Source of the DNA: a bacterium
Lineage (GTDB): Bacteria; Patescibacteriota; Gracilibacteria; Absconditabacterales; Absconditicoccaceae
Length of the DNA: 45,399 nt
NCBI GenBank assembly: GCA_020631605.1
Contig: JAHDGZ010000005.1
Location: 1 to 45,399 of the forward strand
Reading direction: 5' to 3'
In this document: piece after piece, positions 27,440 through 30,932 of the stretch
How the letters are laid out: every line of letters starts with the position of its first letter
How positions within the stretch are numbered: position 1 is the first letter of the stretch
The notes under the pieces: generated by a model
The model's database searches: none
What the model was told of the DNA's origin: nothing
The model's input: the letters and a program-made list of their open reading frames with translations, nothing else
Program-made: the position numbers and the translations under genes

Positions 27440-28939
27440 ATGATTCAATGGATACTTTACAACCAACTTCATCATGATTATGTGTTTGATGAGGTTGAGC
27501 GTATTCTTGTTCTTCATTCTTGTTCTTCTATCTCGACTAAGACTTCTGCATGAAGTATTTCTTTGAATATCTATAGTAAAGTAGTTTCTTATGCTGCTTG
27601 AAAGGCTTTTGTTGATTCTGCTAAAGACGGTGATTTTCTTTTGAGTCAGAGTCGAGAGGAATCTCTCTTTGACTATTGCTCTCTCTATGCTTGTACATAT
27701 CTTGTAGTGATGGATTCATGCGAGGCGTATGTTTCTCATCGTTTGCACAGATTAAAAAAAACTCTTGGTGATAGATGAATCACTCTTGATATCAGACCAA
27801 ATACTCAATTTCTTGTTTCTTATAATGAATGTAGTCAAACATTTGATGAACCTCCTGTGATGGAGTCCTTTTATCGTTGGATGAGAAAAAAAACTGACAT
27901 CCTCATGGATGACGATAAACCACAGGGGTGAAAACGAAATTATGATAAGGAGAACAGAAAGTTTGATAGAACATTTACAGATGTTACACATCTAGGTTTT
28001 TGAGAATCACTATTTTGGCAAGAAGCATGTGAGTATTATCAAGAAGATATTGCTCTATGGGGAAAAGAACTACAACCATACATCCCAGTTACTCGTCAAG
28101 AATCCTTGCTGTTACTTGATTTTTTTGTCCATCAGCATCTTGATAGATTTGGTGAACTTGAAGATGCTATGTATACGACTAGTGATTTTGTTTATCACTC
28201 ATTGCTTAGTATTCCTCTAAACTTTTGACTGCTTACTCCCGAGGAAGTGATTGTAGCTATCGAGAGTGCTGACTCTGCTATCAACAACAAAGAATGATGT
28301 ATTCGTCAAATTTTGGGATGGAGAGAATATATGAATCAGTGGTTTCATTATTATAAAGATGAAATTTATGATCAAAATTTTTTTAATCATACAAGAGATT
28401 TGCCTTATCGATTTTGGAAACCTGATAAAGCGCCAGAGACTGTCAAAAAAATGACATGTATGTCACATGTGTTAGATAAAGTAGACAGATTATGATATTC
28501 TCATCATATCGAGCGTCTTATGATCATAGGTAATTTTTGTTTGTTGGTATGATATAATCCTCATCATATAAATAAGCGATTTTGGGAACAATATGCAGAT
28601 GCTTTTGAACGAGTAGTAACACCTAATGTATTGGGTATGTCACAGTATGCTGATGGTTGAAAACTTGCTACTAAGCCCTACGTGGCAAGTGCTAACTATG
28701 TCAACAAAATGAGTAATTACTGTAAGTGATGTGCTTATAATCCAAAAGAAAAATATGGAGATAACGCATGTCCTTTGAACTATCTGTATCGAAAATTTGT
28801 GGATACGAATAAAGAGACTTTTGTTAAAGGTAGGCAATCATTTATCATCAATCATCTTAAAAAAATTGATAGTGCATTGATTGATAAGCAGACAGATGAT
28901 TTTATTATATCGTTAGATAGAGATGCAAAAGACAGCTAA
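27440..28939 (+). CDS. Iron-sulfur photolyase/cryptochrome (FeS-BCP/CryPro family)
   Basis: 499 residues. Prokaryotic (6-4) photolyases of this class bind FAD and a 4Fe-4S cluster and repair UV lesions with light. Cluster ligands are visible at Cys340, Cys428, Cys431 and Cys444; their spacings (88, 3 and 13) equal those of Agrobacterium PhrB (350, 438, 441, 454). The FAD-binding region has GGKRNYDKENRK and GWREYMNQW. In the segment NYCKGCAYNPKEKYGDNACP a glycine beside Cys431 is TGA. First gene of a tight operon with overlapping ends. I cannot see from sequence which lesion it repairs. Confidence 0.93.
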
Positions 28940-29162
28940 TCAGTACTTTATCATTACTACGATGGATGGCATTCCTGTAATGTCAGACAATAATGTTATT
29001 ATGCAATATACCTCTACTGAGTCTATGAGAAACAACGCGAAGCATCTTACTTTTACTACAGGTCAGCGTCACCATACTCGATGATTGCATAAAGATCAAC
29101 GATATAGGGCAAAAAAGCATTTTGATAGTCATGGTTTTATTCCTTTGTGACTCTTACAATAG
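28923..29162 (+). CDS. Small protein in photolyase operon (unknown)
   Basis: 79 residues, basic and His-rich (GQRHHTRGLHKDQRYRAKKHF). Its ATG 28923 overlaps the end of the photolyase gene by 17 bases; ATG 28962 is an in-frame alternative. Its TAG is immediately followed by the DUF2256 gene ATG. No family is recognised. In other bacteria this slot next to DUF2256 may hold a TIGR03643 protein, but that pattern is not evident here. Confidence 0.6.
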
Positions 29163-29345
29163 ATGAAAAAAAAGTGACGAAAAGGGAATAAGTCATCATT
29201 GCCTTCAAAGATTTGTGTTGTTTGCTGACGTAGTTTTTCGCGACGTAAAAAACGAGAAAAATGTTGGGAAGATATACGCTATTGTAGTGCTGATTGTAGA
29301 TCAAAGAAAACAATTTTAGATTCTAGTATATCTCATGCAGTGTAA
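29163..29345 (+). CDS. DUF2256 zinc-ribbon-like protein
   Basis: 60 residues. The pattern ICVVCGRSFSRRKKREKCWEDIRYCSADC (Cys18, Cys21, Cys34, Cys41, Cys45) is the DUF2256 signature of short basic cysteine proteins. DUF2256 genes often lie beside photolyase/cryptochrome genes, so its position fits. It is probably a metal-binding helper of unknown action. The next gene's ATG (29335) overlaps its end by 11 bases. Confidence 0.9.
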
Positions 29346-30495
29346 GCAGAAGGACGATATTATTGATTTCCTTAGTAAATTTGATGCCCAGGGATACTGA
29401 AAATCACGTAACTATATAGATGGATGAGTGTCACAATTGTCCCCTTATATCACTCATGGCATTATCTCAACCAAGGAATGTATGCAGCAGATATTGTCTA
29501 GGTATACTATCAAAGAAGCAGAGAAATTTTTGATGGAATTGATGCGAAAAGAGTTTTTTCTACAGGTACAAAAGAATTATGGTAATGAGTTTCTTTCACT
29601 TCCTGTTCGAGATGATAAAACCTGAGTGACTAAGAAAAAATTATTAGCCACATCATTAGCTAACCATACAACTCATACTGATCGAGTTAATAGTATTATC
29701 ACACAGATGACGTGAGTTTGATGGTTACACAATCATCAGCGTATGTGGTTGGCAAGCTGGTGTTGTCATTGGGCAAAGTTAGATTGGAAATTGTTGGCAG
29801 ACCGAACATATTATCACTTTCTAGATTGAGAATTGTCTGCAAATCATCTTAGTCGACAATGGGTCAATAGTACTTTTGCCAACAAGGCATATATGATGAA
29901 TGAAGAGAATCTTCAAAAATATCGACCATGAATGGTTGATGAGGATTTGAGGTGAACATATGAAGACGTTTCTTCTTTTCTTTTTGATGAGGATCGTGAG
30001 AGTGCTTACCGAAAAGAGGAGGATGTCTCTTTTTCTTTCACTACACCTTTGGATACATTGGATGTTTTTGATAGCCACTTGTACGAATGAAAGAGTGCTG
30101 TTCGTCTACTTACTCCATGGAGATTAGATGAAGATTTGCTTTGAGATGATGTGTACACTATTGTCCTTTTGGATGAGACATTTACTCAATCTCATCCTTG
30201 GTCTCAGCAACGTATAGATTTTGTTAGATCATATACAGAAAAATATGCTGTTCCTTTTGTTATATGATCATATCAGACTAGTATAGATGATTTGTTGTCT
30301 CAGTGAGTTGATGTATCTATCGATGAAAGACGAGATCCAATCTATCGCGAAGTTCAGAAAAGCTTTTTGTGAGAGCCATGAGTTTCATGTATTCCATATC
30401 CATGGATACATACTTCTCATGGAGATGAGCCAATTATGAAGTTTTTTAAGTACCGAAATAGTAGTAAGCATTTTATCAAAAAGCTGTGACAATAA
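29335..30495 (+). CDS. Photolyase-like FAD-binding protein with C-terminal alpha/beta domain
   Basis: 386 residues. It begins directly with photolyase FAD-domain sequence: GGVSQLSPYITHGIIS (about residue 26), then GWLHNHQRMWLASW and YYHFLDGELSANHLSRQWV with STFANKAY. There is no N-terminal antenna (Rossmann) domain. After a linker (TPWRLDED) residues 245-370 look like an alpha/beta domain (VYTIVLLDETFTQSHPWSQQRIDFVRSY), as if the two photolyase domains are in swapped order. It is in a known photolyase-DUF2256 gene group. Repair versus signalling role is unknown. Its stop overlaps the arfB ATG by one base. Confidence 0.85.
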
Positions 30496-30932
30496 TGTCC
30501 TATCGATATGGGAAGAAGAAGGTGGATGGTTTTATAAAGCAAATTCGACACAAGGAGATCCTATTATCTTTTGCTAAATCCTCATGACCATGATGACAGA
30601 AGATTAATAAGATTGAAACAAAGGTCCAATTATCTTGGGATATTCATCAATCAGCTATCTTGCCACAGCCGTTTTTGCAGAGGTGCATCGAAAGAAATAG
30701 TAAGTATATTACTGATGAGTGAATCTTGAGAATAGATACATCAGTGCATAGAACGCAAAAAGCTAATAAAGAACAGACTTATAAAAAATTTGTTAAAATT
30801 GTTAAATTTGCTTTTGCTGAGAAAGCTGTTAGAAAAAAAACCAAGCCCCCGAAACGAGCTGTATATAAGCGTATTGCAGAAAAGAAAAGAAAGTCAAAGA
30901 GGAGAAATCTGAGAAAGAGAATAGTGGGTTAG
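30495..30932 (+). CDS. arfB: Alternative ribosome-rescue factor B (peptidyl-tRNA hydrolase, YaeJ/ICT1 type)
   Basis: 145 residues. ArfB enters stalled ribosomes that lack a codon in the A site and hydrolyses the peptidyl-tRNA. The GGQ motif is at residues 33-35 in SGPGGQKINKIET, followed by VQLSWDI; the basic C-terminal tail (KKTKPPKRAVYKRIAEKKRK) is the part that fits the mRNA entry channel. All three glycines of GPGGQ are TGA codons (30585-30599). ATG 30495 overlaps the photolyase stop by one base, so it is translationally coupled to the photolyase gene. Distinct from the window's RF1. Confidence 0.93.

Follow-up and report, generated by a model that had tools for sequence, protein, structure and literature searches.

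The window analysed here, a 45,399-nucleotide stretch of an Absconditicoccaceae contig (GCA_020631605.1, JAHDGZ010000005.1), carries at 27440-30932 five plus-strand open reading frames (ORFs) under code 25 (TGA=Gly) that follow one another with successive overlaps of 17, 0, 11 and 1 bases (Table 1), exactly as the first-pass annotation had listed them. Its assignments to FeS photolyase, DUF2256, photolyase and ArfB are likewise borne out by Pfam and NCBIfam models, while the 79-aa product of gene 2 matches no family in either. Since the window is compact, with overlapping gene neighbours also outside the five-gene set, the tight packing proves little by itself, and a consensus scan of the locus (a weak test) found neither a promoter excess nor an operon terminator. 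Just downstream and convergent with the five genes lies an NmrA-like NAD(P)-binding gene.

Table 1. Positions of the five genes, of features beside or within them and of related features on other contigs.
Feature	Position	Strand	Family or evidence
Gene 1, FeS-type prokaryotic (6-4) photolyase, P0009, 499 aa	window:27440-28939	+	PF04244
Gene 2, 79-aa protein, P0010	window:28923-29162	+	no Pfam/NCBIfam family; homologue P0013
Gene 3, DUF2256, small Cys-rich protein, P0011	window:29163-29345	+	PF10013
Gene 4, photolyase with predicted inverted domain order, P0008, 386 aa	window:29335-30495	+	PF03441, first half only
Gene 4 segment, residues 236-386, predicted C-terminal alpha/beta domain	window:30040-30492	+	hhalign and structural matches
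Gene 5, ArfB ribosome-rescue hydrolase, P0012	window:30495-30932	+	NF006718, GGQ motif, basic tail
ArfB active-loop codons	window:30585-30599	+	TGA CCA TGA TGA CAG
NmrA-like NAD(P)-binding gene	window:30942-31679	-
Second, partial ArfB-like match, same genome	G000:C2:6983-7231		E 9e-13
UCG-anticodon tRNA, same genome	L148:1500-1573 (G000:C26:33584-33655)		G73, G1:U72
DUF2256 stress island, G011	L037:1049-5945
P0013 with second AlkB-like gene, G011	L187:808-1731		frame looks disrupted
GSRxVPHHL family member	L205:5186-5548
GSRxVPHHL family member	L206:2623-3084
GSRxVPHHL family member	L207:6508-6906
GSRxVPHHL family member	L208:3522-3869
GSRxVPHHL family member	L209:3643-4047
GSRxVPHHL family member	L210:651-995
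GSRxVPHHL family member	L211:4601-4930
GSRxVPHHL family member	L032:4661-5152

Genetic code and the FeS photolyase

Besides TGA as Gly, this genome reads CGA as Trp, and reassignment of CGA/CGG to Trp is a known Absconditabacteria code (Shulgina and Eddy 2021, PMC8629427). CGA codons 71, 157, 174 and 374 of gene 4 fall in columns that hold Trp in 79 of 81, 76, 81 and 62 homologues, respectively, and for four of the six CGA codons of gene 1, 32-34 of 36 sequences have Trp in the corresponding column. Translating CGA as Trp raises the scores of DUF2256 (58.0 to 71.6 bits, against a gathering score of 25), of FAD_binding_7 in gene 4 (39.0 to 48.8 bits) and of PF04244 in gene 1 (86.3 to 95.8 bits), and it restores the DUF2256 motif FSWRKKWEKCW in gene 3. 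A UCG-anticodon tRNA, whose discriminator reads G73 and whose first pair is G1:U72, shows Trp-type identity bases; the genome also has a tRNA-Arg with GCG anticodon and a UCA tRNA. Under code 25 alone, W174, the Trp next to the flavin in gene 4, and the gene 1 equivalent of Trp390 in Agrobacterium PhrB are misprinted as Arg, so that both photolyase active sites are intact only if CGA is Trp. The ORFs of the earlier translations stand; the Arg residues printed at CGA codons do not.

Most of the gene 1 product can be aligned with (6-4) photolyases, PhrB among them. Its C340, C428, C431 and C444 correspond to the Fe-S cysteines C350, C438, C441 and C454 of PhrB, and its H356, Y414, W326 and W380 (the latter encoded by CGA) to His366, Tyr424, Trp342 and Trp390, positions at which PhrB mutants are affected in repair or electron transfer (PMC4619345). 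Equivalents of PhrB His365 and Tyr430 are kept, too. By its sequence, gene 1 thus appears to be a FeS-BCP prokaryotic (6-4) photolyase, in which every key residue tested is present. It shares domain layout, Fe-S cysteines, catalytic His and Tyr and electron-chain Trp with PhrB, CryB (Rhodobacter) and SePhrB (Synechococcus elongatus, 8ijy) and differs from this set by sequence divergence and recoded codons only, nothing unusual.

Domain order and likely function of the second photolyase

In ordinary photolyases, the alpha/beta domain, which holds the antenna pigment, precedes the catalytic domain. The product of gene 4 is built differently: PF03441 matches residues 65-186 only, a Pfam scan found no PF00875 at the N terminus, and the C-terminal domain has no model in NCBIfam or Pfam. 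An FAD/catalytic domain (about residues 1-230) is followed by one of the alpha/beta antenna type (about 250-360), and the AF2 model built from 58 homologues (pLDDT 87.5, pTM 0.90) folds the last third into an alternating beta/alpha domain. VIA-align pairs model residues 1-228 with residues 228-515 of 7ykn, a (6-4) photolyase from V. cholerae (Z 16.0), so that residue 1 of gene 4 meets residue 228 of 7ykn, suggesting a class-I-like FAD domain without the N-terminal alpha/beta domain. When the C-terminal domain was modelled by itself (pLDDT 88.8) and compared with 1000 candidates, the five highest-ranking matches (Z 7.5-8.8) were all N-terminal domains from prokaryotic (6-4) photolyases, the best being residues 21-150 of 8a1h and 2-135 of 7ykn with Z 8.7-8.8 and 2.7 A over 106 residues.

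Rather than a transposed antenna domain, this could be a Rossmann-like domain (nucleotide-binding or other) that was fused independently. Rossmann-like folds of other kinds, including pantothenate synthetases and a USP domain, score only slightly lower (Z 6-7), which leaves the structural margin for photolyase N-domain identity modest, and Foldseek alone returned nothing significant for the C-terminal domain and missed the photolyase N-domain that VIA-align found. However, the five leading candidates are all photolyase domains, the partner domain is itself a photolyase, and hhalign relates the C-terminal domain to the class I photolyase N-domain at E=3.4e-5 with the same strand order, while the controls stayed clean (0.36 for the reversed profile, 0.099-0.84 for 20 column shuffles). 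So to our minds an independent fusion is quite improbable. With catalytic and C-terminal parts both matched by structure models and profiles, gene 4 is predicted to have its domain order reversed with respect to ordinary photolyases, and the earlier 'permuted' reading of this gene was right.

As for the active site, gene 4 keeps the equivalents of A. nidulans E283, W286, N349, M353, W392, N386, W390 and W367, each conserved in 52-59 of 59 sequences. The first five we take to be contacts to the cyclobutane pyrimidine dimer (CPD), N386 a flavin contact and W390 and W367 parts of the electron chain. Gene 4 therefore shares lesion-contact, FAD and Trp residues with class I CPD photolyases (E. coli PhrB, A. 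nidulans PhrA), from which it differs by the inverted domain order and the lack of an N-terminal PF00875 ahead of PF03441, and going by sequence it classifies as a class-I-like CPD-type photolyase of the 'short photolyase-like' (SPL) branch. Because these residues are kept, CPD photolyase is the best functional guess, and gene 4 most likely reverses CPDs. An alternative sees in gene 4 a cryptochrome-like light sensor that controls nearby photolyase and stress genes and repairs nothing itself. Photolyase relatives often become sensors, and Bacteroidota clusters with this gene hold other light-linked genes such as flavin reductase, yet none of the CPD-contact residues is lost (they are kept in up to 59 of 59 sequences), the operon has no partner regulator and gene 4 has no added signalling tail, all of which makes a sensor unlikely and argues for a repair enzyme.

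SPL proteins have been proposed as ancestors since the antenna domain is absent from them, and clustered cysteines are reported for some. Where PMC9649867 defines SPLs, they are short photolyase-like proteins without the alpha/beta domain. Gene 4 resembles them in opening directly with the class-I-like FAD domain, and two short forms, L112 (Lyngbya) and L113 (Anaerolineales), branch with it and apart from class I photolyases. In both, the chain stops shortly beyond the FAD domain and has clustered CxxC..C cysteines, which gene 4 lacks; unlike SPLs so defined, gene 4 has an alpha/beta domain at its predicted C-terminal position, and together with about 70 of its 80 best homologues it is a full-length chain whose C-terminal extension includes that domain.

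Distribution, recurrent clustering and the ArfB neighbour

The permuted photolyase family is large, with 519 confirmed stretches in genome contigs. Among the best 80 of these 519, which we analysed, most measure 360-440 aa, leaving room for the C-terminal domain, a region that can be aligned throughout the family; a few, such as L112 and L113, are short. In the window's class, the permuted form is found over most of its length in at least 9 of the 353 genomes; many Bacteroidota, Balneolota and Proteobacteria encode it, too. The three members from the window's family fall together in a deep clade of their own (SH-aLRT 99-100), while the permuted photolyases of families f7 and f21 group with Bacteroidota. 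A single origin for the permuted photolyases of the whole class was tried and is rejected (AU test, p=0.009), with long branches involved. A light-driven repair system, which had seemed surprising in this lineage, is not very much so, given a photolyase FAD domain match in 15 and an FeS photolyase in 7 of 59 relatives. Nor are the genes recent arrivals of deviating base composition: the GC of all five equals that of the window, TGA-Gly and CGA-Trp codons sit at conserved sites in operon genes, and the three family members form a clade in the tree, which together rule out a recent transfer from a standard-code donor.

Genes 1, 3 and 4 cluster repeatedly, both in further families of the class and beyond its phylum. 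Across 79 public loci (fetched flank up to 6 kb), 33 have FeS photolyase, 33 DUF2256, 24 both and 42 either one. Within the class, 16 of 17 DUF2256 loci have a photolyase gene in the flank of about 1.5 kb that was fetched, in almost every case as the immediate neighbour (the distance is about 1.2 kb in L022 and 0.4 kb in L199), and Bacteroidota clusters often add flavin reductase and a class I or DASH-type photolyase as well. This recurrence across phyla indicates that the core is a real functional unit, as the idea of a photolyase cluster had it. The exact five-gene order occurs at none of the other loci examined, and two further genera of the window's family show either no linkage or only partial linkage of the genes, so that of the gene order proposed earlier only the core (FeS photolyase, DUF2256, permuted photolyase) is conserved. 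In one of these genera (G011), the permuted and FeS photolyases share a contig, 0.9 kb from each other, and DUF2256 is on another, in a stress island of NmrA-like, AlkB-like, bacilliredoxin, DUF2256, MsrAB and photolyase genes; the NmrA-like gene downstream of our locus belongs to the same family as the one in this island.

A keyword search of titles and abstracts, outside of which lies the SPL founding paper by Xu et al., retrieved no description of a permuted photolyase, and such a search for DUF2256 with photolyase gave nothing relevant. On balance we lean towards the view that the inverted-order branch is large and widespread, was earlier described only as 'short', and forms with DUF2256 and the FeS (6-4) photolyase a conserved photorepair module kept even by reduced-genome Absconditabacteria. 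DUF2256 itself is perhaps a photolyase-associated accessory protein.

Gene 2 is a real gene, judging from one clear homologue in another genus of the same family (P0013 in G011, 45% identity, E 6e-14), which adjoins a second AlkB-like gene whose frame looks disrupted; it may be a lineage-specific helper. Members of a separate family, about 110 aa long and with the motif GSRxVPHHL, occur beside or close to photolyase genes in eight of the class's genomes; this family matches no Pfam (three members scanned) or NCBIfam family (one member). Homology between it and gene 2 was considered and dropped, the best hhalign match (P=0.13, a short common motif) not being significant.

The product of gene 5 scores 118 bits against NF006718 (cut-off 100) and has GPGGQ at residues 31-35 and a basic C-terminal tail (KKRKSKRRNLRKR). 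Both glycines of its GGQ and the Gly two residues before are encoded by TGA, so that a termination-type enzyme depends on UGA being read as Gly. The genome also holds a second, partial ArfB-like match elsewhere. The first-pass annotation had left open whether its pairing with photolyases is chance or links rescue to stalling on UV-damaged mRNA. As a functional partner, ArfB would be co-induced and rescue the ribosomes stalled there. Its ATG does overlap the gene 4 stop by one base, but no other photolyase locus examined has ArfB nearby. Where relatives have good ArfB matches, the gene is located elsewhere; of those with an FeS photolyase, four (G005, G007, G010, G011) have no match to the ArfB model, G057 has only a weak partial release-factor-type match, located on another contig, and G052 has its ArfB at a distance of about 300 kb from the photolyase. 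We regard a functional partnership as highly improbable; chance fits, and ArfB is best read as a fortuitous neighbour in a compact genome.

A probable photoreactivation operon and its implications

Taken together, we think it quite probable that the locus is a photoreactivation operon, i.e. one for direct reversal, that covers both (6-4) and CPD lesions and that ArfB happens to follow. Light-driven reversal of (6-4) photoproducts would fall to the FeS photolyase of gene 1, CPD reversal to the class-I-like active site of gene 4, whose alpha/beta domain, possibly serving as an antenna, would sit after the catalytic domain. DUF2256 would be accessory, perhaps in folding, in cofactor or cluster loading or in DNA handling, and gene 2 may assist as a lineage-specific helper. 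If genes 1-4 are expressed together, as their arrangement suggests, both main UV lesions would be covered, with ArfB a housekeeping ribosome-rescue gene placed behind the operon by chance. A comparable arrangement is the UV-B induced photolyase operon of Synechococcus sp. PCC 7335, which, according to the portion of PMC9649867 that deals with it, comprises a PHR and a putative bifunctional PHR. There, too, two photolyase genes share a compact operon (with an 11-base overlap between them), but as that portion presents it, the operon has two genes, of other photolyase classes, and lacks DUF2256.

Unless CGA is translated as Trp, Absconditabacteria active sites will be misread. For DUF2256, the genomic tie to several photolyase classes offers a handle on an uncharacterised family. 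Photolyase/cryptochrome evolution is usually told from the N-terminal antenna domain, present or absent. If that domain in fact sits at the opposite end in many SPL-type proteins, the case for a 'short ancestor' would have to be re-examined, and the inverted order, if true, would provide a natural test of how the antenna domain communicates with the catalytic one.
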